DNA from: an uncultured Eubacteriales bacterium | GTDB lineage: Bacteria; Bacillota; Clostridia; Peptostreptococcales; Anaerovoracaceae | DNA: 43,127 nucleotides | Reading direction: 5' to 3' | NCBI GenBank assembly: GCA_902798745.1 | Contig: CADBXM010000013.1 | Location: 1-43,127, forward strand | Part shown: positions 15,746-33,573 of the stretch, one piece after another | Numbering within the stretch: the stretch's first letter is position 1 | Layout of the letters: each line of letters opens with the position of its first letter | Program-made: the position numbers and the translations under genes | The notes under the pieces: generated by a model | What the model saw: the letters and a program-made list of their open reading frames with translations, nothing else | Database searches by the model: none | Told to the model about the DNA's origin: nothing

Positions 15746-15833
15746 ATGTTGCAGCATGATCACTTGCAGCAACATCATTTGCAATGCCCGGTCAAAGGCG
15801 ACATGTAAAAATGTGAGAAGTCGATTTACCGGG
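15746..15833 (+). promoter_or_regulatory. Structured 5' leader, possible cis-regulatory RNA
   Basis: ATGTTGC (15746-15752) pairs with GCAACAT (15769-15775). A second, longer fold has CCCGGT (15787-15792) / ACCGGG (15828-15833) enclosing CGAC (15799-15802) / GTCG (15820-15823). No T-run follows, so it is not a simple terminator. I could not match it to a riboswitch class I know. Confidence 0.4.
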
Positions 15834-16513: not shown

Positions 16514-16522
16514 TCCAAGCAA

Positions 16523-18091: not shown

Positions 18092-19176
18092 TAGAGTTCA
18101 GACACATGCAGAAGGCGTTCGGCACTTCTGTGGTATTGAAGGACATAAACGCGACTGTCAACGAGGGAGACTCCATAGCGGTCATCGGACCTTCCGGCAC
18201 CGGAAAGTCCACTCTGCTCAGGTGCCTCACTTATCTTGATCCGCCTACAGGAGGGCAGATATTCGTGGACGGGGAAGACATAACCGCTCCGGGCTGCAAT
18301 ATCTACAAGGTGAGACAAAAGATGGGCATGGTGTTCCAGTCGTACAATCTGTTCGGCCACATGACCGTGATAGAAAACATAATGTACGCGCCTGTCAAGC
18401 TTCTCGGAATGAGCCGTCAGGACGCTTATGACAGAGGTGTCGAGTTGCTGAAAAAAGTGGGGCTGGCGGACAGGACGCTGAAATACCCTGAAGCCCTTTC
18501 CGGCGGACAAAAACAAAGAGTCGCCATAGCAAGGACGCTCGCGATGGATCCCGAGATCATACTTTTCGACGAGCCTACAAGCGCGCTGGACCCGACGATG
18601 ACGGGCGAAGTCGAGGCGGTCATAGAGGATCTTGCCCGTGCAGGCAAGACCATGATGATAGTCACGCATGAAATGAACCTCGCGAAAAGGGTGGCCAATC
18701 GCGTATTCTACATGGACGAGGGGATCATTTACGAGGACGGCCCGGCTGATCAGATATTCAATGATCCGCAGAGGGAAAAGACGAGCAGATTTGTCAGAAA
18801 GCTCAAAGTGCTCGAGTTCAATATAGACAGCCACGGTTTCGATTTCGTGGGCGCGAGCACCGAAATAGACAGATACTGCTTCAAGAACCATATCCCGCTC
18901 AAAACATCGAACAAGATAAGGTCGGTCATCGAGGAACTGTGCGTCCAGATACTGCTTCCTGTGGTCAAAGACCCGGGCATCAATGTCTGCGTGGAATACT
19001 CCGAGGAAGAAGAGTATACGATCATTACAGTGAAGTATCCGGACAGATTCAGACCCGAGGATTCCGGAGATTCCGGAGAGGACCTGTCATACAGACTCCT
19101 TAAGGCCAATACGGAATCAATCGATTACTCGTATGACGAGGCGGAAGGAAGCACTATAGTAATGAAGCTCCGCTGA
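18088..19176 (+). CDS. Amino-acid ABC transporter ATPase (GlnQ-like) with C-terminal HATPase-like domain
   Basis: 362 aa against the usual 240-250 for GlnQ/HisP. Residues 1-242 are a complete ABC ATPase: Walker A GPSGTGKS (34-41), Q-loop VFQSYN, signature LSGGQ (137-141), Walker B IILFDE (157-162), H-loop H194. The extra 120 residues (about 243-362) resemble the anti-sigma-factor/histidine-kinase ATPase fold: IRSVIEELCVQILLPVV (an N-box-like helix where Asn is replaced by Gln286), strands CVEYSEEEEYTIITVKY, and a final LLKANTESIDYSYDEAEGST followed by a last strand. Key ATP-binding residues of that fold (Asn, DxGxG) are not evident, so it may be a regulatory or dimerisation module. The start overlaps the permease stop (ATGA), so the ATPase and permease form one transporter. 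Confidence 0.88.
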   Translation: MIEFRHMQKAFGTSVVLKDINATVNEGDSIAVIGPSGTGKSTLLRCLTYLDPPTGGQIFVDGEDITAPGCNIYKVRQKMGMVFQSYNLFGHMTVIENIMYAPVKLLGMSRQDAYDRGVELLKKVGLADRTLKYPEALSGGQKQRVAIARTLAMDPEIILFDEPTSALDPTMTGEVEAVIEDLARAGKTMMIVTHEMNLAKRVANRVFYMDEGIIYEDGPADQIFNDPQREKTSRFVRKLKVLEFNIDSHGFDFVGASTEIDRYCFKNHIPLKTSNKIRSVIEELCVQILLPVVKDPGINVCVEYSEEEEYTIITVKYPDRFRPEDSGDSGEDLSYRLLKANTESIDYSYDEAEGSTIVMKLR

Positions 19177-19363
19177 ACGATGCCCGGTCGAACGACGCTC
19201 TGGTCGAATGGTGTTCCGCTGAACATGTTATCACTAGAGCCTTGGCGCTCGTCCTCAAGCGCGGTATCGAGTTTTCGCCTGAAAGCTGCGATAGAGTTGC
19301 GGATTGTCGGAATCTTTGCAAAATATCGAAACCTTTGCAAAATAATTGATAATTATCTTAAAA

Positions 19364-19403: not shown

Positions 19404-19475
19404 AGAATAATTGCGGAGGATAATTACGAGAATACGAGAATAATCGCCCGGGCTCGCTTATCATAGTTACCATAG

Positions 19476-20843
19476 ATGAAACAGAAAGACGATCATAAAT
19501 ATATAACTGACTTTACAAGCGGAAATGTAATGAGACAACTTGTCACCTTTGCATCTCCGCTATTTTTGTCGAGCCTGCTCCAGATCGCGTATAACATGGT
19601 GGATATGATCATAGTGGGGCAGAAACTCGGCAAGGTCGGGCTGTCAGCTGTATCGGTAGGCGGCGACGTTACGTCCTTCCTCACCTTGGTCGCGATGGGA
19701 TTCTCGAATGCGGGGCAGGTGATCATTTCGCAGTATCTCGGCTCGGGCCGGAAAGAGAAGATAAGCAGATTCATCGGTACTATGCTCTGCTTCCTTATGG
19801 GGTGCGCGGTCGTTGTGAGTCTGCTGTGTCTCGCTCTCAAAAAGCAGATACTGACATTGATGAACACACCTGCCGAGGCTTTCGACGAGGCTATGAACTA
19901 CGCGACGATCTGTATTGCCGGGCTTGTGTTCATATATGGGTATAACATCGTGAGCGCGGTCCTAAGGGGGCTCGGCGATTCGGTGAGACCGCTTCTGTTC
20001 ATAGGGATCTCGGCCGTCCTCAACGTGATACTCGATGTCGTGTTCGTCTTGATGATGGGGCTGGGAAGTGGCGGAGCCGCGCTTGCGACTGTGGTGAGTC
20101 AGGGAACGTCCTTCGCCCTGTGCTGCATATACGTGTACAGATACAGATCGCGCTATGAGCTGACGCTGACCAGAGGGGAGCTGCTTGGGATCGACCGAAG
20201 TATGCTCGTGAACCTCGTGAAGCTCGGAGTGCCGATGGCGATAAAGTTTGCCGCGGTCCATCTGTCGAAGCTGTTCGTCAACGCGTACGTCAATTCTTAC
20301 GGCGTCGCGGTGTCGGCGTTTGCGGGTATCGCGAACAAGATCAACAGCATAACCAACCTGCTTTCGAATTCCTTCAACACTTCCGGCGCGTCGATGATCG
20401 GCCAGAACATCGGAGCCGGCAAATATGAGCGCGTCGGCAAAGTGATGAAGTCTATATTCTCGATAACGGTCATAATATCAACAGTCCTCTCGTTGCTTAT
20501 CATATTCTTTCCTGACAAGATATACGGCATGTTCACGGATGCCCCTGATGTTATTGCGATCGGGTATAAATATGTTCCGATCGCAGTGCTGTTCTTTTTC
20601 GGCAGCGCAGCCAGGTCGGGCATGAACGCTCTTATCAACGGAAGCGGCAATTACAAGGTGAACTTCGCGACGGCCTTACTTGACGGCATAATTCTGAGGA
20701 TAGGCTTTGCGGTGTTGTTTGGCCTTACTCTTGGGATGAAGCATTACGGTTTCTGGCTGGGAGATGCTCTGGCTGGATTTACTCCTTTGTGGCTCGGTTT
20801 GATCTTCTATTATTCAGGCGCCTGGAAGAAAAGAAGCGTCTGA
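19476..20843 (+). CDS. MATE family multidrug/Na+-driven efflux transporter
   Basis: 455 aa, twelve hydrophobic segments, with the MATE pattern in two halves: FASPLFLSSLLQIAYNMVDM followed by IIVGQKLGKVGLSAVSVGG, then SNAGQVIISQYLGSGRKEKI; the second half has GVPMAIKFAAVHLSKLFVNA and FNTSGASMIGQNIGAGKYER. MATE proteins export drugs or metabolites in exchange for Na+ or H+. The substrate cannot be predicted. No strong SD is seen before ATG 19476. The 299-nt leader contains the shared element at 19364-19403, three GAGAATA copies (19403, 19428, 19436) and a direct repeat CTTTGCAAAATA. A terminator follows at 20926-20970. Confidence 0.9.
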   Translation: MKQKDDHKYITDFTSGNVMRQLVTFASPLFLSSLLQIAYNMVDMIIVGQKLGKVGLSAVSVGGDVTSFLTLVAMGFSNAGQVIISQYLGSGRKEKISRFIGTMLCFLMGCAVVVSLLCLALKKQILTLMNTPAEAFDEAMNYATICIAGLVFIYGYNIVSAVLRGLGDSVRPLLFIGISAVLNVILDVVFVLMMGLGSGGAALATVVSQGTSFALCCIYVYRYRSRYELTLTRGELLGIDRSMLVNLVKLGVPMAIKFAAVHLSKLFVNAYVNSYGVAVSAFAGIANKINSITNLLSNSFNTSGASMIGQNIGAGKYERVGKVMKSIFSITVIISTVLSLLIIFFPDKIYGMFTDAPDVIAIGYKYVPIAVLFFFGSAARSGMNALINGSGNYKVNFATALLDGIILRIGFAVLFGLTLGMKHYGFWLGDALAGFTPLWLGLIFYYSGAWKKRSV

Positions 20844-20860
20844 TTCCACTTTTGGATTAT

Positions 20861-20936
20861 TTTTGAATAAAAACGTTACTTATATCACGCTTATTGCACC
20901 GATTTTGAATAAAAACGTTACTTATGTCACGCTTAT
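20861..20936 (+). repeat. 34-nt direct duplication downstream of the MATE gene
   Basis: Units at 20861-20894 and 20903-20936 begin TTTTGAATAAAAACGTTAC and end TCACGCTTAT. They differ at one position (TATATCACG against TATGTCACG) and repeat at 42 nt. The second unit provides the 5' arm of the terminator. Confidence 0.85.
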
Positions 20937-20970
20937 GCTTGCAAAATCGCGCAGGAAGCGTGACTTTTTT
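20926..20970 (+). terminator. Intrinsic terminator of the MATE gene
   Basis: GTCACGCTT (20926-20934) pairs perfectly with AAGCGTGAC (20956-20964), followed by TTTTTT (20965-20970). Confidence 0.85.
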
Positions 20971-21068
20971 CTGTAAAAACCTAAAGAGTTTGGCTAAATT
21001 AAGTCATTATTCAATGATATGAATAATAATTCATGGCATTTTTCGGTGTGATCTCAAGATTGTTCTCA

Positions 21069-21101
21069 ATTCGGTATAAATTCGGTATAAATTCGGTATA
21101 A
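21069..21101 (+). repeat. Three perfect 11-bp tandem units
   Basis: ATTCGGTATAA occurs three times head to tail at 21069-21079, 21080-21090 and 21091-21101. The near-helical period would place equivalent faces on the same side of the DNA, as in protein-binding arrays, but no binding protein is known. Confidence 0.9.
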
Positions 21102-21184
21102 ATAGCGCGGGATTCGCGCTGTTAACTAGATTTACAAAATCGCGAATGACTTTGTGTTCACGCTTGAACCGCGAAAAAAGGGGT

Positions 21185-21210
21185 AGAGACGTGACAATAA
21201 TCACGTCTCT
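21185..21210. other. 10-bp perfect hairpin in the purE upstream region
   Basis: AGAGACGTGA (21185-21194) / TCACGTCTCT (21201-21210), loop CAATAA. On the minus strand it is followed by ACCCC and TTTTTT, so it could terminate minus-strand transcription. On the plus strand no T-run follows. No minus-strand gene lies to its right nearby. Confidence 0.6.
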
Positions 21211-21313
21211 TCAAGAAAAATGGCAAATGTGCGTGACCGGAGAACGCGAATTATTATGCATTTGAATCTCATCGTGTTTGTGTTGTTACGTATGCGCTGA
21301 ATAACCCGGTGTT

Positions 21314-21381
21314 CTGGTATTAGTGTCCGGCATTGGTGCACTGATATTTGCCTTCTGGTGTTGGTACCCGATACTGGTATT
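21314..21381 (+). repeat. Degenerate CTGGTATT repeats
   Basis: CTGGTATT at 21314-21321 and 21374-21381, with variants CTGATATT (21341) and CTGGTGTT (21355) between. This is a loose, decayed repeat tract. Confidence 0.5.
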
Positions 21382-21419
21382 TTCGTATTATTGTAAAAAC
21401 ATAGATTATTACTGCAAAT

Positions 21420-21459
21420 TCATTTGATTATAAGCTCTGAAAATGAAATAATAACTATG
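21420..21459 (+). repeat. Leader element copy 2 (upstream of purE)
   Basis: Begins TCATTTGATTA and ends CTATG. It aligns ungapped with 19364-19403 (33 of 40 identical). The 12-mer CCCGGGCTCGCT follows at 21511-21522 as in copy 1. Confidence 0.6.
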
Positions 21460-21530
21460 TGTTTTTGTGTTTAAACTGACGGCGTGTTCTATTCAGCCGG
21501 CAGGGCTGATCCCGGGCTCGCTGTCAACGG

Positions 21531-21632
21531 ATAACAAGCGTATAGAAAAGCAAATAATAAGTGAATAATAAGCGTATAGAGAAGCAAATTATAAGCAGAT
21601 AATACGCGGATAAAAAAGCAAATAGTAAACAG
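21531..21632 (+). repeat. Three 34-bp tandem repeats ending at the purE ribosome-binding site
   Basis: Units 21531-21564, 21565-21598 and 21599-21632 share ATAATAAGCG near the start and AAGCAAAT in the centre. A fourth, partial unit starts at 21633 with ATAATAAGCGGAGG, so the purE SD (GGAGG, 21642-21646) lies at the same phase where the other units read TATAG or GATAA. Confidence 0.85.
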
Positions 21633-21653
21633 ATAATAAGCGGAGGAAATGAT

Positions 21654-22142
21654 ATGAAAAAAGTCGGACTTATCATGGGAAGCGACAGCGATCTGCCTGT
21701 AGTCAGCAAGGCTGCCGGCGTGCTAAAGGAACTGGGCATCCCATACGAAGCTCACGTATACTCGGCGCACAGGACGCCTGCCGAAGCGGCGGAGTGGACG
21801 AAGGCGGCGAAGAGCGAAGGCTTCGGAGTCATCATAGCCTTCGCGGGCATGGCAGCCCACCTGGCGGGAGCGATTGCGGCAAACACTACGCTCCCGGTGA
21901 TCGGCGTGCCATGCAAGAGCGCCGCGCTTGAGGGCATGGACGCTCTGCTGTCGACCGTGATGATGCCGAGTGGCATCCCGGTCGCCACTGTTGCGATCGA
22001 CGGAGGCAAGAACGCGGCGCTGCTCGCCGCCGAGATGCTGGCCCTTTCGGACCCTGCTTTGGCAGACGCGCTGGATGCGAAGAGAGCAAAGGAAGCAGCC
22101 GCAGTCCTGGAAAAAGATAAAGGGATCGAGGAGAGGTTATAG
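21654..22142 (+). CDS. purE: N5-carboxyaminoimidazole ribonucleotide mutase (class I PurE)
   Basis: 162 aa. Conserved blocks: GLIMGSDSDLPVV (nucleotide-phosphate binding), YSAHRTPAEA (with the catalytic-site His), FAGMAAHLAGAIAANTTLPV and GVPCKSAALEGMDALLSTV. Reaction: N5-CAIR to CAIR, step 6 of purine synthesis. Class I PurE normally partners with the ATP-dependent PurK; no purK is in this cluster, so PurK is elsewhere or absent. The first gene of the purine cluster, with SD GGAGG 7 nt before ATG. The preceding 34-bp repeats and shared leader element make its upstream region unusual. Confidence 0.96.
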   Translation: MKKVGLIMGSDSDLPVVSKAAGVLKELGIPYEAHVYSAHRTPAEAAEWTKAAKSEGFGVIIAFAGMAAHLAGAIAANTTLPVIGVPCKSAALEGMDALLSTVMMPSGIPVATVAIDGGKNAALLAAEMLALSDPALADALDAKRAKEAAAVLEKDKGIEERL

Positions 22143-22144
22143 AC

Positions 22145-22183
22145 CGGCAGTGAATCGGTAGTAAGTCGGCAGTGAGCCGACAG
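22145..22183 (+). repeat. 11-bp degenerate tandem repeats after purE
   Basis: CGGCAGTGAAT, CGGTAGTAAGT and CGGCAGTGAGC in tandem (22145-22177), with a partial fourth unit CGACAG. They start three bases after the purE stop. Confidence 0.8.
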
Positions 22184-22230
22184 GGCGATAAGCTGATAAG
22201 TATTTGAGAAATCGGATATGCCGGTGCCGG

Positions 22231-22260
22231 GGCGAGATCATATCATGCGTGGATCTCGCC
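22231..22260 (+). other. 9-bp hairpin in the purC leader
   Basis: GGCGAGATC (22231-22239) / GATCTCGCC (22252-22260) with a 12-nt loop, 46 nt before the purC start. There is no T-run, so it is not a terminator. It could protect or time the processed purC mRNA. Confidence 0.55.
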
Positions 22261-22306
22261 AATCAAAACAGATAATAGTTTTATTCACATACAAGGAGGC
22301 CATTTT

Positions 22307-22987
22307 ATGAAATTAGTGTACACAGGAAAGACAAAGAACGTATTTGAACTTGAAAACGGCAACTATCTGCTGAAGTTCAAGGATGACGTTACGGGCAAGG
22401 ACGGCAAGTTCGATCCGGGCGAAAACTCCGTTGGACTCACGATCGAAGGCGTAGGCGACATCAACCTTCAGATGACAGACTACTACTTCAAGAAGATCAA
22501 CGAAGCAGGTATCCGCACTCATTTCGTAAAGGCCAACTTCGAAGATACAACAATGGAAGTAAAGCCTGCAAAGGTGTTCGGTCACGGTCTCGAAGTCATC
22601 TGCAGACTCAGAGCTGTAGGTAGCTTCATCAAGAGATACGGTGAATACATCGAGTCGGGCACAGAGCTCCCTGCATATGTAGAGACGACTTTCAAGAATG
22701 ATGCACTCGGCGATCCGCTCGTAACAAAGGACGGACTCGTGGTGCTCGGAGTCATGACAGAAGAGCAGTATGACGACCTCAAGGACATGACCCAGAAGAT
22801 CACAAAGATCGTTGCCGACGACATGAAGGAAAAGGGACTGGACCTCTACGACATCAAGTTCGAGTTCGGCTATGACGCAGACGGCAAAGTGATGCTCATC
22901 GACGAGATCGCTTCGGGCAACATGAGAGTCTACAAAGACGGCGAGTACATCGAGCCTCTGAAGCTGAACGAACTCTTCTTCGCATAG
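22307..22987 (+). CDS. purC: Phosphoribosylaminoimidazole-succinocarboxamide (SAICAR) synthase
   Basis: 226 aa, the short bacterial form. Blocks: [20 protein letters not shown] (ATP-binding Gly-Lys loop), [49 protein letters not shown], and the Mg/ATP block [16 protein letters not shown]. Reaction: ATP-dependent ligation of aspartate to CAIR. SD AAGGAGG (22293-22299) 7 nt before ATG. It follows purE after 164 nt containing repeats and a hairpin. PurB, which acts next on SAICAR, is not in the window. Confidence 0.95.
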
Positions 22988-23031
22988 AGACAAGCGCAAT
23001 AAGAGCTGCTTAAGAAAAGAAAGGATTAGTC

Positions 23032-24459
23032 ATGGGAGGATTCTTTGGCATAACTTCCACTGAGAACTGCATACTGGACGTCTTTTTCGGCGTCGACTAC
23101 CATTCGCACCTCGGCACGCGCCGGGGTGGTTTGGCTTCATACGATAAGAAATTCGGCTTCCAGCGTGAGATCCACAACATCGAAAACGCCCCATTCAGAA
23201 CCAAGTTCGAGGGCATAGTCGATAAGATGAGCGGACAGTCCGCGATCGGCTGCATAAGCGACATGGACCCGCAGCCACTGCTCTTCAGATCGGTGAGCGG
23301 CACCTACGCGATATGCTTCGTCGGCGTCATCAATAATGTGAAAGAGATCGCTGACCTGGTGCTTAAAGGTTCGCACGGCCACTTCGAGGCGATGACAGCG
23401 GGCAGACTCAATCAGGCAGAGATCATCGCGGCGCTGATTTCGGATAAGGACGATTTGGTCGAGGGCATTCGCCACGCGCAGGAGATCATCGACGGTTCGG
23501 CATCGATACTGGTGCTCAAAGAAGGCGGCGACATCATAGTCGCGCGAGATAAAGACGGCAGGATACCTGTGACCGTCGGAATCTCCGAGAACGCGAGCGG
23601 CGTATCGTTCGAGACCTTCCCTCTTGAAAAAGCAGGCTTCGAGAATATAAGAGACCTCGGGCCGGGAGAGATAGTCGAGCTGAAGCCGGGTAAATGCAAA
23701 CAGCTGAGAGCGCCTGATGAAGAAATGAAGATCTGCGCGTTCCTCTGGAGCTACTACGGCTACCCGACGACCACCTACGAGGGTGTCAATGTCGAGACGA
23801 TGCGCTACAAGAACGGCCGCATCATGGCAAGGAACGACCGGGAGAGTGGCTTCGATCTTGAGAGCGTCGATTACGTGGGAGGAGTTCCTGACAGCGGCAC
23901 ACCGCATGCCATCGGATATTCCAACGAGAGCCACAGACCGTTCGCGAGAGCGTTCATCAAATACACTCCTACATGGGCGAGGAGCTTCATGCCTACGAAC
24001 CAGGAGGAGCGTAACGAAGTAGCCAAGATGAAACAGATCCCTGTAAAGGAGCTGATCGACGGCAAGAGCCTGCTCTTCGTGGATGATTCAATAGTCCGCG
24101 GCACACAGCTCCGCGAGACCGTAGAGTTCCTCTATGACAACGGGGCGAAAGCAGTGCATATGAGGTCGGCATGTCCGCCGATAATGTACGCCTGCAAGTA
24201 TCTTGGGTTCAGCCGGAACAAGAGCGAAATGGACCTCCTGTCGAGACGCCTTATCGTGAAACTAGAGGGAGAGATCGGACTCAAGCATATAGACGAATAC
24301 GCGGACGCTTCGACAGAACGCGGACGCAGGCTGAGAGATGAGATCGCCAAGGAAATGGGATTTGAGACACTTGAGTTCCAGTCGCTGGAAGGCGTGATCG
24401 AAGCCATCGGTTTAGATAAGTGCAAACTCTGCACGTACTGCTGGACCGGAGAAGAATAG
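23032..24459 (+). CDS. purF: PurF-like amidophosphoribosyltransferase lacking the N-terminal catalytic Cys
   Basis: 475 aa. The C-terminal phosphoribosyltransferase half is intact, with PRPP motif LLFVDDSIVRGTQLRET (D351-D352, R356-G357-T358) and GGVPDSGTPHAIGYS. The N-terminal half has the Ntn glutamine-amidotransferase layout, but it starts MGGFFGI where active enzymes have Cys directly after Met (MCGI/MCGV), and HLGTRRGGLASYD and GCISDMDPQPLLF replace the usual HRGQES and Arg-Tyr-Ser-Thr/NAQPF glutamine-site blocks. Cysteines C235 (KICAF), C388 (YACKY) and C464/C467 (CKLC, with C470 after) sit where Bacillus PurF binds its 4Fe-4S cluster. The enzyme should therefore make phosphoribosylamine from PRPP, possibly with free ammonia or ammonia from a partner. 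Start with AAAGGA upstream; SD and length fit. Confidence 0.9.
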   Translation: MGGFFGITSTENCILDVFFGVDYHSHLGTRRGGLASYDKKFGFQREIHNIENAPFRTKFEGIVDKMSGQSAIGCISDMDPQPLLFRSVSGTYAICFVGVINNVKEIADLVLKGSHGHFEAMTAGRLNQAEIIAALISDKDDLVEGIRHAQEIIDGSASILVLKEGGDIIVARDKDGRIPVTVGISENASGVSFETFPLEKAGFENIRDLGPGEIVELKPGKCKQLRAPDEEMKICAFLWSYYGYPTTTYEGVNVETMRYKNGRIMARNDRESGFDLESVDYVGGVPDSGTPHAIGYSNESHRPFARAFIKYTPTWARSFMPTNQEERNEVAKMKQIPVKELIDGKSLLFVDDSIVRGTQLRETVEFLYDNGAKAVHMRSACPPIMYACKYLGFSRNKSEMDLLSRRLIVKLEGEIGLKHIDEYADASTERGRRLRDEIAKEMGFETLEFQSLEGVIEAIGLDKCKLCTYCWTGEE

Positions 24460-24482
24460 AGAATAATAGAAATGGAGAGAGA

Positions 24483-25535
24483 ATGAGTACTTATTCGAAT
24501 TCAAACAGCTATGCTGCAGCCGGTGTTGATCTTACAGCGGGCTACAAGGCCGTAGAGCTGATGAAGAAACACATCGCAAGGACTACCACCCCGGGAGTGA
24601 TGGGGCAGGTCGGCGGGTTCGGCGGCCTCTTCGAGCTCGACCTCACAGGCATCGAAAAGCCTGTCCTGGTGAGCGGCACCGACGGGGTAGGAACCAAGCT
24701 CAAGCTGGCATTCACGCTGGAGAGACACGATACCATCGGCATCGACTGCGTGGCTATGTGCGTGAACGATATCATCTGCGTGGGAGCGAAGCCACTTTTC
24801 TTCCTTGACTATATCGCATGCGGAAAGAACGTCCCTGAAAGGATCGAGCAGATCGTTTCGGGCGTTTGCGAGGGCTGCGTTCAGTCAGGCGCGGCGCTCA
24901 TCGGCGGCGAGACCGCGGAGATGCCGGGTTTCTACGACGCAAATGAATACGACCTTGCCGGATACTGCACAGGCGTAGTCGACAAGGACAAGATGATAGA
25001 CAATAACGAGATGAAGGAAGGGGACATTATCATCGCGCTTCCTTCGAGTGGAGTCCATTCCAACGGATTCTCGCTGGTGAGGAGAGTCTTCGCGCTCGAC
25101 AAGCCTGATGTCATGATGCTCAATGCCGCGAACACACAGCTCGGCGGAGCATCGCTCGCAGACACACTGCTTGCCCCTACCAAGATCTACGTAAAGCCTG
25201 TACTGGCACTTCTCGACGAAGTCAAGGTAAAGGGCATCTCGCATATCACAGGCGGAGGTTTCTACGAGAACATCCCTCGCTCCATCCCTGGCGGACTCGG
25301 AGCCGTGATCGTGAAGAAGGCAGTGAAGGTGCTTCCGATATTCGAGCTTATCCAGGCTGTCGGAGTCATCGACGAGCACGACATGTACAACACATTCAAC
25401 ATGGGCGTCGGCATGACGATCATCGTTTCGAAGGAAGACGCAAACAGAGCGATCAGCATCCTGAAGGAAAACGGTGAGGATGCCTACGTTATTGGTGAAG
25501 TCGTGCGTTCAAAAGAAAAGATCCAGTTCATTTAG
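24483..25535 (+). CDS. purM: Phosphoribosylformylglycinamidine cyclo-ligase (AIR synthetase)
   Basis: 350 aa from ATG 24483, chosen because GGAGAG lies just upstream; the longer frame to 24420 overlaps the purF end and has no SD. Conserved blocks: YAAAGVDLTAGYKAVELMKK, GGFGGLFEL, LVSGTDGVGTKLKLAF, DCVAMCVNDIICVGAKPLFF, LIGGETAEMPGFY, HSNGFSLVRRV, ISHITGGGFYENIPR. ATP-dependent ring closure of FGAM to AIR, step 5. The spacing of 23 nt after purF suggests co-translation. Confidence 0.96.
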   Translation: MSTYSNSNSYAAAGVDLTAGYKAVELMKKHIARTTTPGVMGQVGGFGGLFELDLTGIEKPVLVSGTDGVGTKLKLAFTLERHDTIGIDCVAMCVNDIICVGAKPLFFLDYIACGKNVPERIEQIVSGVCEGCVQSGAALIGGETAEMPGFYDANEYDLAGYCTGVVDKDKMIDNNEMKEGDIIIALPSSGVHSNGFSLVRRVFALDKPDVMMLNAANTQLGGASLADTLLAPTKIYVKPVLALLDEVKVKGISHITGGGFYENIPRSIPGGLGAVIVKKAVKVLPIFELIQAVGVIDEHDMYNTFNMGVGMTIIVSKEDANRAISILKENGEDAYVIGEVVRSKEKIQFI

Positions 25536-25541
25536 GGCGGT

Positions 25542-25614
25542 TCAATCAGAAAGTATCGGTTTGGGCAGATCGACCAGAACGTATCGATCAGTACGGATCG
25601 ATCAGAAAAGATAG
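25542..25614 (+). repeat. 18-nt repeats in the purN leader
   Basis: Related units at 25542-25559, 25569-25586 (ATCGACCAGAACGTATCG) and 25597-25614 (ATCGATCAGAAAAGATAG), spaced 27-28 nt apart, fill the purM-purN gap. Confidence 0.75.
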
Positions 25615-25627
25615 TTAGGACGGTGCA

Positions 25628-26236
25628 ATGGCAGACAAAGCGAAGATCGCCGTGTTGGTGTCGGGAGGCGGCACCAATCTGCAGGCGCTTATAGACGCAG
25701 AGAGATCAGGGATCATCGATTCCGGAGAAATAGTGCTCGTGATATCCAACAACGAGGGAGCCTATGCGCTCGAGCGCGCTGAGAACGCGGGGGTCGAAGC
25801 CAGGGCCGTCACAAAGAAAGCGAATGGCGGACAGGCCGGCTTTGAGGCGGCAGTCAGAGAGCTGATAGATTCGAGGGGTATCGACCTTATTGTGCTCGCG
25901 GGCTTCCTGAGCATACTGAGCGAGGACTTCGTAAAGCACTACGATCACAGGATCGTGAACATACATCCGGCTCTCATCCCGTCGTTCTGCGGACCCGGAT
26001 ACTATGGGCTGAAGCCGCATATAGCGGCGCTCGAACGCGGAGTCAAGGTGACGGGCGCGACGGTCCACTATGTCAACGAGATAGCGGACGGCGGTGAGAT
26101 CATCGCGCAGAAAGCCGTCTATGTAAAGGATGGCGATACTCCTGAGATGCTACAGAGGCGTGTAATGGAGGAGGCCGAGTGGATAATACTTCCACAGGCC
26201 GTCGCGGACATCTGCAAAAAGATAATAAACGCGTAG
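25628..26236 (+). CDS. purN: Phosphoribosylglycinamide formyltransferase (GART)
   Basis: 202 aa. The N-terminal SGGGTNLQALID binds substrate phosphate; IVNIHPALIPSFCGPG carries the catalytic Asn-His pair; TGATVHYVNEIADGGEIIAQ carries the catalytic Asp region. Reaction: 10-formyl-THF-dependent formylation of GAR, step 3. The folate-independent PurT is not needed. The stop is 9 nt before the PurO-like start. Confidence 0.95.
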   Translation: MADKAKIAVLVSGGGTNLQALIDAERSGIIDSGEIVLVISNNEGAYALERAENAGVEARAVTKKANGGQAGFEAAVRELIDSRGIDLIVLAGFLSILSEDFVKHYDHRIVNIHPALIPSFCGPGYYGLKPHIAALERGVKVTGATVHYVNEIADGGEIIAQKAVYVKDGDTPEMLQRRVMEEAEWIILPQAVADICKKIINA

Positions 26237-26245
26237 GGGAGTTTT

Positions 26246-26965
26246 ATGGATATTTATTCAACTGAAAGATTCAGAGATGCGGTAAGCGGCAACAGTTATC
26301 CTGGCCGCGGTATTGTAGTTGGAAATTCAGGCGATGGCGCTAATGCAGTCATCGCGTATTTTATAATGGGGCGCTCGGAGAATTCGCGCAACCGCGTCTT
26401 TTCCGAGAAGGACGGAGCCGTTTACACGGAGCCGTTCGATCCGTCAAAGGTAGAGGATCCGAGCCTGATCATCTACGCGGCGGTAAGGACCTTTGAAAAC
26501 AAACTGATAGTGACGAACGGCGACCAGACCGATACGGTGTACGAGGGTTTCGCGCAGGGCAAGGGTTTCCATGAGGCTCTCACGGAGAGATGCTTCGAGC
26601 CCGACGCGCCCAATCTCACGCCCCGTATCAGCGCAGTCGTGAGACTGGGCTCCGGCGCTTTTGACTACAGCATGAGCATACTCAAAAGCGCGGACCGCGG
26701 CGGCACCGCCTGCAACCGCTACGGATTCGACTACGCGCCGCTCCCGGGCGTCGGGCACTTCATCCACACATACCAGTGCGATGGAAACCCACTGCCGACA
26801 TTCCAGGGAGAGCCTCGCCGCATTGAGATCCCGAATGACATCGATGAGTTCACGGATGAGATCTGGAACTCGCTCGACCCAGGCAACAAGATCTCGCTCT
26901 ACGTGCGTTACACAGACATCAAAACCGGCGAGATACAGAGCCGCCTGATCAACAAAAATCAGTAA
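26246..26965 (+). CDS. purO: IMP cyclohydrolase, PurO-like
   Basis: 239 aa. The sequence shows the archaeal PurO/IMP_cyclohyd family style: YPGRGIVVGNSGDGANAVIA, YFIMGRSENSRNRVF, LIIYAAVRTFENKLIVTNGD, LTPRISAVVRL, PLPGVGHFIHTYQCDGNPLP. PurO closes FAICAR to IMP, the last step of the pathway, and is unrelated to PurH. The gene sits next to a transformylase-only gene, so together the two replace bifunctional PurH. Start ATG 26246 has GGGGAG just before it. The symbol is used by family analogy; a hydrolase of another substrate is unlikely given the neighbours. Confidence 0.88.
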   Translation: MDIYSTERFRDAVSGNSYPGRGIVVGNSGDGANAVIAYFIMGRSENSRNRVFSEKDGAVYTEPFDPSKVEDPSLIIYAAVRTFENKLIVTNGDQTDTVYEGFAQGKGFHEALTERCFEPDAPNLTPRISAVVRLGSGAFDYSMSILKSADRGGTACNRYGFDYAPLPGVGHFIHTYQCDGNPLPTFQGEPRRIEIPNDIDEFTDEIWNSLDPGNKISLYVRYTDIKTGEIQSRLINKNQ

Positions 26966-27030
26966 TATCAGTAATAGAGTTACAGGTGCTATCGGAACTT
27001 TGATCCCGATCGGCCGACCGCGGTGAAAAG

Positions 27031-27098
27031 AGGATCAAATACTGAAGGGCCAAATACAAAGGGTCAAGTATAACAGGATCAAAAAAAGGATCAAAAAA
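27031..27098 (+). repeat. 12-15-nt degenerate repeats before the transformylase gene
   Basis: AGGATCAAATAC-like units start at 27031, 27046, 27060, 27075 and 27087 (variants AGGGCCAAATAC, GGGTCAAGTATAAC, AGGATCAAAAAA). The last copy, AAGGATC, is in position to act as the SD for ATG 27102. Confidence 0.75.
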
Positions 27099-27101
27099 GA
27101 A

Positions 27102-28286
27102 ATGAAAGAATTCGAACTGAAATACGGCTGCAATCCGAATCAGAAGCCGGCACGCATCTACATGGCGGACGGAAGCGACCTGCCTGTAGAGATAATAAGC
27201 GGGCGCCCGGGATACATCAACTTCCTCGACGCTCTGAATTCCTGGCAGCTCGTGAAGGAGCTGAAGGAAGCGCTCGGCATGCCTGCGGCGGCTTCGTTCA
27301 AACACGTGAGCCCGGCGGGGGCAGCCATCGGACTGCCGCTTACAGACAAGCAGAAGAAAGCCTGCTTCGTCGATGATATAGAAGGCCTTGACGATTCACC
27401 GCTCGCCTGCGCCTACGCGAGAGCGAGGGGCACTGACAGGATGTGCTCGTTCGGCGACTGGATCGCGCTTTCGGATGAGTGCGACGCGGTCACGGCCAAA
27501 ATCATAAAGCGAGAGGTGAGCGACGGAGTGATCGCTCCGGGCTACACCGATGAAGCGCTCGAGATACTAAGCGCCAAAAAGAAGGGCAATTACAACGTGA
27601 TCAAGATCGATCCATGCTACACACCGGCCGAGAAGGAATCCAAGCAGGTATTTGGAGTCACTTTCGAGCAGGGGCACAACTTCTTCAAGATAGACGAGGC
27701 TCTGCTCACGAACGTGGTGACCGAGAACAAGATCCTTCCGAGCGAGGCAAAGCGCGATCTCATAGTGGCGCTGATCACGCTGAAATATACACAGTCGAAT
27801 TCCGTATGCTACGCGCACGATGGTCAGGCGATAGGAGTGGGAGCCGGTCAGCAGTCGAGAGTGCACTGCACACGCCTCGCGGGAAGCAAGGCAGACACAT
27901 GGTTCCTCCGCCAACACGACAAAGTGCTCGGCCTGCCGTTCAAGCCCGAGATGAAGAGGCCCGACAGGGACAACGTGATCGACGCGTACATAAACAGGAA
28001 TGAAGAGGATTGCTGCGCTGACGGCAACTGGCAGAAATACTTTACGGAGCAGCCTGAGCGTTTCACAGACGAGGAGCAGAGAGCGTACCTCGATACGATA
28101 ACAGGCGTGAGCTGCGGTTCGGACGCGTTCTTCCCGTTCTTTGACAACGTGCAGAGAGCGGCGGCGTCGGGCGTGAGCTACATCGCTCAGCCGGGCGGAT
28201 CTATTCGCGACGATGCTGTCATCGAGTGCTGCAACGAGCTCGGCATCACAATGGCCTTCACAGGAATGAGGCTGTTCCATCACTGA
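27102..28286 (+). CDS. Stand-alone AICAR formyltransferase (PurH transformylase-type domain only)
   Basis: 394 aa. It matches the AICARFT domain of PurH but lacks the PurH N-terminal MGS-like cyclohydrolase domain. Conserved blocks: LKYGCNPNQKPARIYM, AAASFKHVSPAGAAIGLPL (the catalytic Lys-His pair), DWIALSDECDAVTAKIIKRE, TLKYTQSNSVCYAHDGQAIG, VGAGQQSRVHCTRLAGSKAD, DAFFPFFDNVQRAA, YIAQPGGSIRDDAVIECCNE. It formylates AICAR to FAICAR with 10-formyl-THF; the PurO-like neighbour then closes the ring. I recall the name PurV for such proteins but leave the symbol blank. The upstream gap is filled by repeats. Confidence 0.92.
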   Translation: MKEFELKYGCNPNQKPARIYMADGSDLPVEIISGRPGYINFLDALNSWQLVKELKEALGMPAAASFKHVSPAGAAIGLPLTDKQKKACFVDDIEGLDDSPLACAYARARGTDRMCSFGDWIALSDECDAVTAKIIKREVSDGVIAPGYTDEALEILSAKKKGNYNVIKIDPCYTPAEKESKQVFGVTFEQGHNFFKIDEALLTNVVTENKILPSEAKRDLIVALITLKYTQSNSVCYAHDGQAIGVGAGQQSRVHCTRLAGSKADTWFLRQHDKVLGLPFKPEMKRPDRDNVIDAYINRNEEDCCADGNWQKYFTEQPERFTDEEQRAYLDTITGVSCGSDAFFPFFDNVQRAAASGVSYIAQPGGSIRDDAVIECCNELGITMAFTGMRLFHH

Positions 28287-28345
28287 CAACGCACATCAAC
28301 GCGCAACAAAGTGCAACAACGCATAACAAAGCACAAAACGCACTT
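28287..28345 (+). repeat. 10-12-nt CAAC-type degenerate repeats before purD
   Basis: Units of the form CAACGCACAT, CAACGCG, CAACAAAGTG, CAACAACGCAT, AACAAAGCAC, AAAACGCACTT run without a break from the transformylase stop to just before the purD SD (AAAGGA, 28348-28353). Confidence 0.7.
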
Positions 28346-28361
28346 GGAAAGGAAACATATC

Positions 28362-29627
28362 ATGAACATTATGGTAGTAGGGGGCGGCGGAAGAGAGCAC
28401 GCCATCATCAAGAAACTCAAAGAGAACAAGAGCGTAGAGAAGATATGGGCGCTGCCGGGAAACGGCGGCATCGCGCTTGACGCGGAGTGCCATCCGGTAA
28501 AGGCGACAGACATCGAAGGCATAGTCGCTTTCGCGAAAGAGCATAAGCCGGATTACGCGGTGGTCGCTCCTGACGATCCGCTGGTGATGGGCTGCGTCGA
28601 CGCGCTCACAAGCATCGGGGTGCCTTGCTTTGGCCCTGACGCGAAGGCGGCGATCATCGAGGGAAGCAAGGTCTTCAGCAAGGACCTCATGAAAAAGTAC
28701 GATATCCCGACCGCACGCTACCAGACATTCAGCAATATAAAGGACGCGCTTTACTACCTCGAGTCGGCGCCGATCCCTACGGTCATCAAGGCCGACGGAC
28801 TCGCGCTCGGCAAGGGCGTGGTCATCGCGGAAACGAGAGAAGACGCTGTCGCCGCTGTGAAGTCCATGATGGAAGATCACAAATTCGGCGCCAGTGGTGA
28901 TAATATAGTAATAGAAGAATTCCTCGAAGGGCCTGAGGTATCCGTGCTGAGCTTCACTGACGGCAAGACTGTCGTTCCGATGATAAGCTCCATGGATCAC
29001 AAGCGCGCAGGCGACGGGGACACGGGACTCAACACCGGCGGCATGGGCACCGTCGCTCCGAATCCGTACTATACGGATGAGGTGGCGGCACGCTGCATGG
29101 AAGAGATATTCCTGCCGACTATGCGCGCGATGAATGAAGAGGGGCGCACCTTCAAGGGCTGCCTTTACTTCGGCCTCATGATAACTGCCGACGGCCCTAA
29201 AGTCATCGAGTACAACTGCAGGTTTGGAGACCCTGAAGCGCAGGTGGTATTGCCGCTTCTCGATTCCGATCTTCTCACCATCATGCAGGCGGTCACCGAG
29301 GAGAGGCTTTCCGAAGTCGAAGTCAAGTGGAAAGACAGCTCGGCATGCTGCGTGATAGCCGCGTCAGACGGCTACCCGGTCAGCTATGAAAAGGGATACG
29401 AGATAGAGATCCCTGAGGAAGTGCTCCCATATGTATACGTTGCCGGAGCTGCCGAGGAAGAAGGAAGGCTCATCACGAGCGGCGGCAGAGTGCTCGGCGT
29501 GACAGCGGTGAGACCTACACTCGGCGAAGCGATAGAAGCTTCATATGACATGCTCGACAGCATAGATTTCGCAAACAAGTATTACAGAGCGGATATCGGG
29601 CAGAGAGCGCTGAAAGCACTCAAATAG
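28362..29627 (+). CDS. purD: Phosphoribosylamine-glycine ligase (GAR synthetase)
   Basis: 421 aa from ATG 28362, which has AAAGGA 8 nt upstream; the frame extends to 28311 but only through the repeat tract. ATP-grasp enzyme with MVVGGGGREHAIIKKL, YAVVAPDDPLVMGCVDAL, PTVIKADGLALGKGVVIA, IVIEEFLEGPEVSVLSFTDG, HKRAGDGDTGLNTGGMGTVA, IEYNCRFGDPEAQVVLPLL. It joins phosphoribosylamine (from PurF) and glycine, step 2. No purD-independent promoter is evident. It is followed by the purL leader repeats. Confidence 0.96.
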   Translation: MNIMVVGGGGREHAIIKKLKENKSVEKIWALPGNGGIALDAECHPVKATDIEGIVAFAKEHKPDYAVVAPDDPLVMGCVDALTSIGVPCFGPDAKAAIIEGSKVFSKDLMKKYDIPTARYQTFSNIKDALYYLESAPIPTVIKADGLALGKGVVIAETREDAVAAVKSMMEDHKFGASGDNIVIEEFLEGPEVSVLSFTDGKTVVPMISSMDHKRAGDGDTGLNTGGMGTVAPNPYYTDEVAARCMEEIFLPTMRAMNEEGRTFKGCLYFGLMITADGPKVIEYNCRFGDPEAQVVLPLLDSDLLTIMQAVTEERLSEVEVKWKDSSACCVIAASDGYPVSYEKGYEIEIPEEVLPYVYVAGAAEEEGRLITSGGRVLGVTAVRPTLGEAIEASYDMLDSIDFANKYYRADIGQRALKALK

Positions 29628-29663
29628 AAAAGGATCAGGAAAAAGATCAGTAAAAAAAGCACT
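29628..29663 (+). repeat. 12-nt tandem repeats in the purL leader
   Basis: AAAAGGATCAGG, AAAAAGATCAGT and AAAAAAAGCACT follow each other exactly (29628-29663), directly after the purD stop. Confidence 0.75.
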
Positions 29664-29718
29664 AAACGAACGAATCGTAAAAACATACAAAACACGCAAC
29701 TCAAAAAAGGAGAAAGCA

Positions 29719-32700
29719 ATGGTCTACAGGGTATTTGTAGAGAAGAAGGAAGGTCAGAGAGCTGAAGCCGCAGCACTTAAGAACGACGCGAGGACACAGC
29801 TCGGGATAACGAGGCTCGAAGACGTAAGGATCGTCAACAGATATGATGTCGAGAACATAGAAGAGGAACTCTTCGAAGACTGCGTATGGAAGGTCTTCGC
29901 GGAGCCTCAGCTTGACAACGTCGCGGGAGGGATAGACGAGCTCTTCCCATGGGATTATGCCGCGATGTTCGGAGTGGAAGCTCTCCCGGGTCAGTTCGAC
30001 CAGAGGGCAGACTCCGCGGAGCAGTGCATACAGATAATAAGCCAGGGCGAGAGGCCGACGGTCAAGTTCGCCAGGATCTACCTGCTCTACGGTGAATTGA
30101 TGCCGGCGGATATCGACGCGATCAAAAAATACGTGATCAATCCGGTCGAGACAAGAGAAGCTTCGCTTGAGATGCCTGAGAGCCTGCAGATGGAATACGA
30201 GATCCCTGAGACAGTGGAAACTCTCGAAGGCTTCACAGACATGGAGCCTGCGGCATACAAGATGTGCATCGACGAGATGGGACTCGCTATGGATGAAGAC
30301 GATCTCGGTATGTGCGTGGAGTACTTCAGAGATACCGAGCACAGAGATCCAACCATCACAGAGATCCGCATGATAGACACATATTGGTCCGACCACTGCA
30401 GACACACGACATTCAACACGGTCATAGACAGCGTCACATTCGAAGATCCTGTTCTCGAAAAAGCGTATATGGACTACCTTACAGTCAGGAAAAATCTCGG
30501 GCGCGACAAACCTGTGACCCTGATGGACATCGCGACCATTGCGGTCAAGCATCTGAAACGCCTCGGCAGACTCGACAAGCTCGATGAGTCAGAGGAGATC
30601 AATGCCTGCACCATCAAGATAAACGTGGAGGTCAACGGCGAACTCGAGCCGTGGCTCCTCCTCTTCAAGAACGAAACACACAACCATCCTACCGAGATAG
30701 AGCCTTTCGGAGGCGCTGCTACATGTCTCGGAGGATGCATCAGAGACCCGCTCTCGGGAAGAGCTTATGCTTACTCCGCAATGAGAGTCACGGGCGCAGC
30801 CGATCCTCTTCAGCCGGTCGCGGATACTCTGCCGGGCAAGCTCCCGCAGAGGTCGATCGTAACGACGGCGGCGAAGGGCTATTCCAGCTATGGTAACCAG
30901 ATCGGACTTGCTACGGGCATAGTCGATGAGATCTATCACCCTGGATATGCCGCTAAGCGCATGGAAGTGGGCGCCGTCATGGCGGCCGCTCCATCGGTCA
31001 ATGTCAGAAGGCAGCGGCCGGAGCCGGGCGATGTAGTTATGCTGCTCGGCGGCTCGACCGGGCGCGACGGCATCGGCGGGGCAACAGGATCATCCAAAGC
31101 GCACGACTCGCACTCGGTCGAGACATGCGGCGCCGAGGTCCAGAAAGGAAACCCACCTGAAGAGCGCAAACTCCAGAGACTCTTCAGAAGCGGAGTCGCC
31201 ACACGCATGATCAAGCGCTGCAACGACTTCGGAGCGGGCGGAGTCAGTGTCGCCATAGGCGAACTTGCCGATGGCCTCGAGATCGAGCTCGACAATGTAC
31301 CTAAGAAATACGAAGGCCTTGACGGCACAGAACTGGCTATAAGCGAATCGCAGGAGAGAATGGCCTGCGTGATAGCCGCTTCCAACGAAGAACTCTTCGT
31401 GACTCTCGCCGCCGAGGAAAACCTCCAGTGCGTAAAAGTCGCCACAGTTACCGCGGAGCCGAGGCTCGTGATGAACTGGAACGGCAACAAGATAGTAGAT
31501 ATCTCAAGAGAGTTCCTCGACACCAACGGAGCCGACAAGCACATCGACATAGCTCCTGAAGTTCCAAAAGACTGGAACGCTACGAGCATGTACGCAGAGT
31601 CGAGAAGCTTCACAGCGGCCATGAGAAATCTGGCGCAGGATCTCAACATCTGCTCCAAGAGAGGCCTTTCGGAGCGCTTCGATTCCACCATCGGAGCCGG
31701 CACTGTGTTGATGCCGTTTGGCGGCAAAAACCAGCTCACGCCGATACAGGCGATGGTGCATAAGATCCCACTCGAGGAAGGAAGTACAGACGACTGCTCG
31801 CTGATGGCATTCGGATACAACCCGTTCATCTCGAGCGCTTCGCCTTATCACGGGGCTTACCTCGCGGTGATCGAGTCAGTGGCCAAGCTGATCGCGGCAG
31901 GCGCTGAGTTCAAGGATGTATATCTCTCGTTCCAGGAGTACTTCGAATCTCCTAGGAGAGACGGCAAGAGATGGGGCAAGCCTCTGGCAGCTCTTCTCGG
32001 CGCGTTCGAAGCCCAGATGGGACTCGGCATCGGAGCTATAGGCGGAAAGGACTCCATGAGCGGAAGCTTCGAAGACCTCGATGTGCCTCCGACACTCATT
32101 TCCTTCGCCGTTACCATGGGCAAAGTGCCTGATATAGTTTCGCCTGAATTCAAAGCCGCCGGTCACAAGGTGATCTGGCTGAAGCCTTATCTTCAGGAAG
32201 AAGGCGAAGGCGCGGGAGAAGGCCTTCCTGACCCTGTTTCACTCGTGAGAGTATGGAACAAGGCTTACGAATTCATCTCGAGCGGCAAGGCAGTCGCGGC
32301 GTACACCCCGGGAATGGGAGGAGTCGCGGAAGCTATAATGAAGATGAGCTACGGAAACGGCATCGGATTCAAATTCATGCTCGACGAGGCTGAGGAAGAA
32401 GAAGCCCAGGGCAAGACATACAGCGCTAACAGGATAAAGACCGAAGCCCTTAAAGACATCTTCGGTTATTCATACGGAAGCATCATACTGGAACTGGCCG
32501 AGGACGAAGAGGTCGGCATGCGCGGTATGGATGTTGAAACGCTCGGCTACACATCGGAAGAAGAAAGCATCGACTTCCTCAACGAGAAAGTCAGCATCGG
32601 CGAGCTGCTCATGCTCTATGAGGACAAGCTCGAGAGCGTCTTCCCTAACAACGCCGACACAAAGACTACGCTGATGGGCAACGTCAGCTACGCGGCCAGA

Positions 32701-33528
32701 AGCTGGCACGCCACTGTATACAAGAGAAGCGAGCCAAAGGTTCTGATCCCTGTATTCCCCGGCACCAACTGCGAGTACGACAGCGCGCGTGCGGTGAGAG
32801 AAGCCGGCGCGAAGCCTGAGATAATGGTGATCAGAAACCGCACTTCCGACGATATACGTCGCTCGGTAGAGCAGTTCGCTGCAGCTCTTAAGGAATCGCA
32901 GGTAGTATTCATCCCGGGAGGATTCTCGGGAGGAGACGAGCCTGATGGTTCGGCCAAGTTCATCACTGCGTTCTTCCGCAACGCGGCGATAAGCGAGGGA
33001 GTCACAGAGCTCCTTGAGAAACAGGATGGACTGATGCTCGGTATCTGTAACGGATTCCAGGCGCTCGTCAAGCTGGGACTCGTGCCATACGGCAAGATAG
33101 TCGATACTGATGCCGACAGCCCTACACTGACATACAACACGCTCCACGCTCACCAGTCAAAGATAGTGAGAGTAAGAGTCGCTTCCAATAAATCTCCATG
33201 GCTCAGATACTGCAATGTCGGAGATATCTACTCGGCACCTGTATCCCACGGAGAGGGAAGGTTCATTGCGCCTGAGGAAACGCTGAAGAACCTCGCCAAG
33301 ATGGGCCAGATCGCGACACAGTATGTCGACCTCGAAGGCAACGCGACAGGAGACATCAGGTTCAACCCTAACGGCTCCATGCTGGCAGTCGAGGGCATCA
33401 CTTCGCCTGACGGCAGAGTGTTCGGAAAGATGGGACACGCCGAGAGAGTCGGAAAAGGTCTCTACAAGAACGTCGACGGCAATTATTTCATGAAGCTGTT
33501 TGAAAACGCGGTCGAATACTTCAAATAG
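29719..33528 (+). CDS. purL: Phosphoribosylformylglycinamidine (FGAM) synthase, large fused form
   Basis: 1,269 aa, the single-chain type that contains the PurS-like N-terminus, the two AIRS-like halves and a C-terminal class I glutaminase, so no separate purS/purQ is needed. Core motifs: YWSDHCRHTTFN, FKNETHNHPTEIEPFGGAAT, GGSTGRDGIGGATGSS, GAGGVSVAIGELADGLEIEL, GIGAIGGKDSMSGSFEDL. The glutaminase has PVFPGTNCEYDSARA, FIPGGFSGGDEP, the nucleophile C1110 in LGICNGFQALVKLG and the His-Glu pair H1177/E1179 in VSHGEGRF. Reaction: FGAR to FGAM with glutamine and ATP, step 4. SD AAAGGAG precedes ATG 29719. The intact glutaminase contrasts with the Cys-less PurF-like protein in the same cluster. 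Confidence 0.96.
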   Translation: MVYRVFVEKKEGQRAEAAALKNDARTQLGITRLEDVRIVNRYDVENIEEELFEDCVWKVFAEPQLDNVAGGIDELFPWDYAAMFGVEALPGQFDQRADSAEQCIQIISQGERPTVKFARIYLLYGELMPADIDAIKKYVINPVETREASLEMPESLQMEYEIPETVETLEGFTDMEPAAYKMCIDEMGLAMDEDDLGMCVEYFRDTEHRDPTITEIRMIDTYWSDHCRHTTFNTVIDSVTFEDPVLEKAYMDYLTVRKNLGRDKPVTLMDIATIAVKHLKRLGRLDKLDESEEINACTIKINVEVNGELEPWLLLFKNETHNHPTEIEPFGGAATCLGGCIRDPLSGRAYAYSAMRVTGAADPLQPVADTLPGKLPQRSIVTTAAKGYSSYGNQIGLATGIVDEIYHPGYAAKRMEVGAVMAAAPSVNVRRQRPEPGDVVMLLGGSTGRDGIGGATGSSKAHDSHSVETCGAEVQKGNPPEERKLQRLFRSGVATRMIKRCNDFGAGGVSVAIGELADGLEIELDNVPKKYEGLDGTELAISESQERMACVIAASNEELFVTLAAEENLQCVKVATVTAEPRLVMNWNGNKIVDISREFLDTNGADKHIDIAPEVPKDWNATSMYAESRSFTAAMRNLAQDLNICSKRGLSERFDSTIGAGTVLMPFGGKNQLTPIQAMVHKIPLEEGSTDDCSLMAFGYNPFISSASPYHGAYLAVIESVAKLIAAGAEFKDVYLSFQEYFESPRRDGKRWGKPLAALLGAFEAQMGLGIGAIGGKDSMSGSFEDLDVPPTLISFAVTMGKVPDIVSPEFKAAGHKVIWLKPYLQEEGEGAGEGLPDPVSLVRVWNKAYEFISSGKAVAAYTPGMGGVAEAIMKMSYGNGIGFKFMLDEAEEEEAQGKTYSANRIKTEALKDIFGYSYGSIILELAEDEEVGMRGMDVETLGYTSEEESIDFLNEKVSIGELLMLYEDKLESVFPNNADTKTTLMGNVSYAARSWHATVYKRSEPKVLIPVFPGTNCEYDSARAVREAGAKPEIMVIRNRTSDDIRRSVEQFAAALKESQVVFIPGGFSGGDEPDGSAKFITAFFRNAAISEGVTELLEKQDGLMLGICNGFQALVKLGLVPYGKIVDTDADSPTLTYNTLHAHQSKIVRVRVASNKSPWLRYCNVGDIYSAPVSHGEGRFIAPEETLKNLAKMGQIATQYVDLEGNATGDIRFNPNGSMLAVEGITSPDGRVFGKMGHAERVGKGLYKNVDGNYFMKLFENAVEYFK

Positions 33529-33573
33529 AAAACCGCTAAACAGCAATCAATTAAGAAAAGAATCACATATAAA

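Follow-up and report, generated by a model that had tools for sequence, protein, structure and literature searches.

The window analysed here, a stretch of 43,127 nt, is the whole of contig CADBXM010000013.1 in the incomplete 1.97-Mb draft genome (41 contigs) of an uncultured gut bacterium of the Eubacteriales, and it carries the purine biosynthesis (pur) genes in the order purE, purC-like, purF-like, purM, purN, purO-like IMP cyclohydrolase, AICAR formyltransferase, purD and purL. Our analysis confirmed that the tandem arrays in the gaps between these genes are real and concentrated there, with head-to-tail copies in excess of chance, as is expected of intergenic minisatellite-like arrays. 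We consider it probable that these gaps are spacer DNA remade by recurrent short tandem duplications, followed by decay, and that they have no conserved sequence function.

Gap borders were set by a simple gene caller written for the analysis, and gaps shorter than 30 nt, longer than 900 nt or containing N were excluded before counting, leaving 390 gaps in a sample of 843 kb, or 43% of the bacterium's own genome. The repetitiveness of each gap was scored as its best local self-match at lags of 6 to 60 and compared with 400 dinucleotide-preserving shuffles, and Tandem Repeats Finder (TRF) was used as a second method. Six of the seven pur gaps of at least 30 nt reached p<=0.01, while the purC-purF gap is not repetitive (p 0.91). 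Elsewhere in the sample, the same threshold was reached by 14/288 co-directional, 2/44 convergent and 3/51 divergent gaps. With TRF, 5/7 pur gaps scored at least 40 versus 10/288 others, for which the shuffles gave expectations of 0.3 and 1.5, respectively. Both controls proposed with the original prediction of repeats in these leaders thus came out in its favor, in that shuffled sequences fail to reproduce the repeat scores and the other gaps of the sample do not show the same level. Coding tiles at p<=0.01 numbered 0/84 in the pur genes and 23/896 in other genes, and their absence from pur coding sequence indicates that only free DNA is affected.

The repetitive gaps of the window, flagged for this purpose at p<=0.02, form a single run in which 8 of 10 consecutive gaps are flagged (15,559-29,718), with 0/6 flagged before it and 0/9 after it. 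The first gaps of the run precede the pur genes and adjoin an ABC transporter gene and a MatE gene. When the 28 flagged gaps were permuted among all 390, six flagged in seven consecutive gaps arose in 3 of 20,000 trials (p 0.00015), a value that describes the 43% sample only and a window that was picked by a reader who had seen the repeats. Worn repeats as such are common in all four sets of gaps that we scored, being flagged in 28/390 gaps of the bacterium's own genome, 34/383 of its sister species, 18/212 of the genus and 33/364 of the outer loci.

The arrays found by the lag scan and TRF are as follows. They include all six leaders in which the original prediction had placed repeats, and four arrays that it did not list (15749-15783, 19167-19208, 19297-19344 and 21068-21103).

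15749..15783, no strand assigned: 15-bp repeat in a divergent gap, where the run with its 8 repetitive gaps begins (TRF score 49; z 4.3)
19167..19208, + strand: degenerate 15-bp repeat across the stop codon of the ABC transporter gene, 5' of the pur cluster (TRF score 49; ungapped copy identity only 0.56)
19297..19344, + strand: degenerate 19-bp repeat in the gap that precedes the MatE gene (z 7.6)
21068..21103, + strand: perfect 11-bp array of 3.3 copies in the long MatE-purE gap (TRF score 72, 100% match)
21530..21642, + strand: 34-bp array of 3.3 copies with about 81% copy identity in the purE leader, stopping about 4 nt before the purE start region (TRF score 149; z 33 against 400 shuffles)
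22145..22183, + strand: 11-bp degenerate array in the purC leader, beginning 2 nt past the purE stop (lag scan z 5.7, p 0.005; identity 0.75; not in the TRF list)
24449..24470, + strand: 10-bp repeat of 2.2 copies across the purF stop (TRF score 37; identity 0.92 over 12 positions); the purF-purM gap, at 23 nt, is below the minimum of the gap test
25536..25607, + strand: degenerate array of 28-bp lag or 14-bp unit in the purN leader, beginning at the first base past the purM stop (z 11.4; TRF 14 bp x 2.9 at 25568-25607, score 59)
26958..26976, + strand: 9-bp repeat of 2.1 copies across the stop of the purO-like gene (TRF score 38, 100% match)
27072..27098, + strand: 12-bp array just 5' of the transformylase (AICAR formyltransferase) start, with two perfect 12-bp copies at 27075-27098 (TRF score 48, 100% match for the perfect copies; z 3.8, p 0.0025)
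28287..28336, + strand: 10-12-bp degenerate array in the purD leader, beginning at the first base past the transformylase stop (z 7.2; TRF 10 bp x 5.9 at 28286-28343, score 60)
29628..29666, + strand: 12-bp degenerate array in the purL leader, beginning at the first base past the purD stop (z 3.4, p 0.0075; TRF scores 46 and 33, with 12 bp x 2.5 at 29627-29656)

The main arrays have units of 34, 11, 28/14, 12, 10 and 12 bp, and the units are unrelated, as had been proposed: among seven arrays (including one extra 11-bp array), similarity reached p<0.02 in 1/21 pairs. A GATCA motif shared by three leaders had been seen by eye and was rejected, with cross-array similarity at chance level. Dispersed intergenic repeats such as STAR and REP/PU are also intergenic and often tandem, with one unit shared across the genome. 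In contrast, the arrays described here are unlike each other, no second good copy of the 34-bp unit was found in the bacterium's own genome (the next match has E 0.113), and no single genome-wide unit of the REP/STAR type emerged. The copies are perfect only in 21068-21103, 26958-26976 and 27075-27098 according to TRF, while most of the main arrays have identities of 0.73-0.81. This range of wear, from perfect to about 0.73 identity, indicates that the arrays are of different ages and did not all arise together. The claim that repeats start near the upstream stop in several cases also held, since four of the six main arrays, those of the purC, purN, purD and purL leaders, begin 0-2 nt past it (0.7 expected within 5 nt, p 0.0008), while those of the purE and transformylase leaders do not. 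A general anchoring of arrays at stops was rejected, as the effect is clear in the window and weak in all other sets combined (12/82 vs 7.1 expected, p 0.03).

To compare these gaps between species, one genome was used per species. The closest of 47 genus genomes searched, G060, shares 85% DNA identity over the formyltransferase-purD block, and its Pur proteins are 83-97% identical to those of the window, with G060 PurC cut by a contig end. The spacers differ throughout, with lengths (window/G060) of 44/63 nt for purC-purF, 23/143 for purF-purM, 92/4 for purM-purN, 9/66 for purN-purO, 136/359 for purO-formyltransferase, 75/90 for formyltransferase-purD and 91/86 for purD-purL. The median change in length was 57 nt for pur spacers and 3 nt for the rest; when only those other gaps were counted that measured 30 nt or more and lay between proteins at least 83% identical, it was 14 nt, still differing from the pur value (p 0.026). 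After 21 of 114 adjacent gene pairs had been dropped because predicted starts disagreed or N was present, and with spacers under 33 nt on either side untestable for homology (3/7 pur pairs and 53/86 others), homology was recognized in 0/4 testable pur spacers versus 25/33 others. When both flanking proteins were required to be at least 83% identical, the counts were 0/4 and 15/20 (Fisher p 0.012). None of the six G060 pur gaps reached p<=0.01 (one was at 0.015 and one at 0.030), while 13/284 of its other co-directional gaps did. In G060, the gaps L194 7069-7613 and L207 9361-10052 carry 54-bp arrays that score very strongly (z 164 and 104, respectively). A repeat with a 21-bp lag and similar sequence (TGCAAAAATT...TTTTGCAGGAATTAGG) is shared by L124 16633-16821, a gap of the bacterium's own genome, and L214 5438-5620, a gap of G060. 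The pur arrays are not shared in this way, and the 21-bp repeat may therefore be conserved or belong to a dispersed element.

Turnover of pur spacers was then followed across 24 genus loci. Recognizably homologous spacers made up 13/14 comparisons at more than 95% PurF identity, 50/135 at 90-95%, 19/82 at 85-90%, 7/211 at 80-85% and 0/472 below that; for the spacers of the window the count was 0/80 and for those of G060 0/68. Pur-spacer turnover is therefore rapid genus-wide, and the window-G060 pair is not extreme. At genus loci L032-L052, 12/113 pur gaps and 3/92 other gaps reached p<=0.01, with a single inherited 7-bp repeat accounting for four of the 12, and at ten outer loci the counts were 1/34 and 1/30. 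A 53-bp array stands in the purM-purN gap of L044 and is missing from L043 and L045, whose PurF proteins are 97.7% and 99.2% identical to that of L044, and in L036 a 38-bp array lies in a 78-nt gap whose counterparts in L046 and L048 measure 18 and 17 nt. From these comparisons, the birth of an array is visible in L044 and L036. Arrays specific to one lineage at a shared place were found both in the window relative to G060 and in L044 relative to L043 and L045. In the purM-purN gaps of L043 (13242 on), L044 (13409 on) and L045 (11253 on), an inverted repeat rich in GC precedes a run of T; it is near-identical in all three species and terminator-like by eye.

We envisage that duplications with units of about 9-34 bp would arise in the few unoccupied bases that separate a stop codon from the ribosome-binding site downstream of it, with every gap producing its own unit and the copies decaying by point mutation, so that a role would be retained only immediately ahead of the start codon. 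The molecular step would be slippage or copy-choice duplication, and a regional tendency at about 15.5-29.7 kb, whether less constraint or more duplication, may keep producing arrays. The recurrent slippage suggested in the original prediction fits the unrelated units, the varied wear, the lack of sharing with the sister species and the 53-bp array confined to L044. Neutrality is suggested by the lack of conservation of sequence, unit and length, and because the nearest species examined is without the arrays, fast-changing filler built from small duplications is likelier than a conserved switch.

Several points weigh against this explanation. The density of arrays in the region is unaccounted for by it, with 14/288 other co-directional gaps holding arrays. 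The homology contrast between the window and G060 rests on four pur gaps, and the changes between the two are unpolarised, so that each may be a gain in one species or a loss in the other. At 90-95% PurF identity, 50/135 spacers are still homologous, and the window-G060 pair is unexceptional in the genus. Lastly, the pur arrays are richer in A than non-repetitive segments (p 0.010), a bias that would not be expected under pure neutrality and that other arrays do not share; a general A-bias of tandem arrays was rejected, as it was not seen in the other arrays of the own, sister, genus and outer sets.

There are two main alternatives. The first, which is unlikely, is that the spacers are selected, with long repeat-filled gaps breaking translational coupling or tuning pur translation and duplication being the cheapest way to gain length. 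The arrays do concentrate in the operon of one pathway, they are A-rich, and the excess of pur over other gaps recurs at the genus loci (12/113 vs 3/92, with the inherited repeat counted four times among the 12). Most pur gaps here also exceed the range of 30-40 nt over which, according to a review (PMC12548453), translational coupling drops as spacing rises. Yet lengths are not kept between the window and G060 (92/4 and 9/66 nt), the run of arrays takes in upstream gaps of other genes, and gaps of similar length elsewhere in the own-genome sample seldom hold arrays (8/172 of those 40-170 nt long). The original prediction had stated that the last copy often supplies or abuts the Shine-Dalgarno (SD) sequence, and by eye this applies only to purE and the transformylase gene; "often" did not stand, as 3/6 arrays end within 20 nt of a start codon versus 2.6 expected, which is chance level. 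Selection for unstructured spacers, which had also been proposed, is not supported, as the leaders are not unusually unstructured: their folding z-scores lie between -0.45 and -3.34, the median for 150 other gaps (40-200 nt) is -1.30, and folding energy per base is low only in the A-rich purE, purD and purL leaders. Translation tuning likewise went unsupported, with neither arrays nor lengths kept between species, leaving the original interpretation partly supported.

The second main alternative is a local mutational hotspot at about 15.5-29.7 kb, in which tandem duplications would form at a raised rate regardless of the operon present. The scan result and the absence of flagged gaps on both sides speak for such a hotspot, and the differing ages of the arrays point to a cause that persists. 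We regard it as quite improbable all the same, given that the pur coding tiles are free of repeats (0/84, though constraint could hide the effect), that the G060 pur gaps give 0/6 at p<=0.01, and that no cause was found with 43% of the genome sampled.

It is very improbable that the repeats are binding sites, for a protein, for Rho or as phased A-tract curvature, that regulate the operon. Units of 10-12 nt do recur in four leaders, and the pooled gaps of the bacterium's own genome and G060 show repeat lags in excess at 9-12 and 20-24 bp. Against this, the units have no common sequence and are not kept in the sister species, and helical phasing was rejected after a Rayleigh-type test on 80 best lags gave p 0.10-0.14 at periods of 10.5-12, reaching 0.01-0.03 only at periods of 13-14.5. 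Rfam gave no gathering-level match anywhere in the window and, for 20800-22350, no match even at E<=1. The idea of a riboswitch or another known RNA in front of purE was rejected on this basis, and no described structured or regulatory RNA family was matched. The long gap before purE does contain a near-perfect inverted repeat of 11 pairs at 21185-21210, with no Rfam match there. Promoter-like matches are about 2-fold in excess over 19100-34700 (23 vs 11.5).

That the pattern is chance or artefact is scarcely credible: although the window was selected for its repetitive look, the gene caller was home-made and the 41-contig draft is incomplete, two independent scores and the shuffles agree, the permutation scan over 390 gaps gave p 0.00015, and worn, non-identical copies would be unlike those of a collapsed or duplicated assembly.

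The genes flanking the gaps were assigned as follows.

21654..22142, + strand: purE (TIGR01162 above cut-off)
22307..22987, + strand: purC-like (TIGR00081 E 1.2e-35, below the curated cut-off at 123 of 190 bits)
23032..24459, + strand: purF-like (TIGR01134 E 1.1e-46, below the curated cut-off at 160 of 350 bits)
24483..25535, + strand: purM (TIGR00878 above cut-off)
25628..26236, + strand: purN (TIGR00639 above cut-off)
26246..26965, + strand: purO-like IMP cyclohydrolase (PF07826 above cut-off; purO_arch model below, at 52 of 158 bits)
27102..28286, + strand: stand-alone AICAR formyltransferase, the transformylase of the original prediction (NF005492 above cut-off)
28362..29627, + strand: purD (TIGR00877 above cut-off)
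29719..33528, + strand: purL, single-chain FGAM synthase (TIGR01857 above cut-off)

The bit scores of the PurC-, PurF- and PurO-like proteins are far under the NCBIfam cut-offs, marking them as divergent branches. The archaeal-type IMP cyclohydrolase adjoins the stand-alone AICAR formyltransferase. Those relatives of the locus that have names are Mogibacterium-like assemblies built from ruminant gut metagenomes. In Candidatus Crickella equi (L061 797-1411), purN is relocated between purE and purC, and the remaining order is kept.

Literature searches returned no account of tandem repeats in purine operon gaps. Bacterial minisatellites and variable number tandem repeats (VNTRs), as described in PMC2884548, are similar in having short head-to-tail intergenic units that vary between related genomes, with slippage as the usual explanation. 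That paper counts minisatellites with units of at least 20 bp and identity of at least 90%, whereas here most units are shorter, the copies are worn (about 73-81%) and the arrays lie in consecutive gaps of one biosynthetic cluster. Among PMC2884548, PMC9879509 and PMC12548453, the closest printed parallel is found in Borg repeats (PMC9879509), which likewise have unique units, fast turnover, A-richness and starts at the ends of open reading frames (ORFs). According to PMC9879509, Borg repeats are perfect, have at least 3 units over at least 50 nt, and occur throughout archaeal extrachromosomal elements and also in ORFs. The arrays described here differ from that description in being degenerate, confined to gaps and located on a bacterial chromosome, and they do not generally have perfect units.

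A bolder proposal, which we offer tentatively and think rather unlikely, is that this stretch of core chromosome with its purine operon persistently generates short tandem duplications, by which nearly every inter-cistron gap would have been rewritten within the divergence of the sister species while enzymes and gene order stayed stable. Spacing would then be remodelled continually and differently in each lineage, and selection may use this to uncouple translation or adjust it anew. Gaps inside operons are usually taken to be short, under constraint and of little interest. In this conserved operon, gene order has been maintained, yet the gaps have changed in sequence faster than other gaps compared between the two genomes, and the route of that turnover, tandem duplication, is visible. 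The pur gaps thus offer a natural series in which to study the evolution of intercistronic spacing and its possible effect on translation, and they also serve as a warning that repeats in such leaders should not be read as regulatory signals without a check against a sister species.

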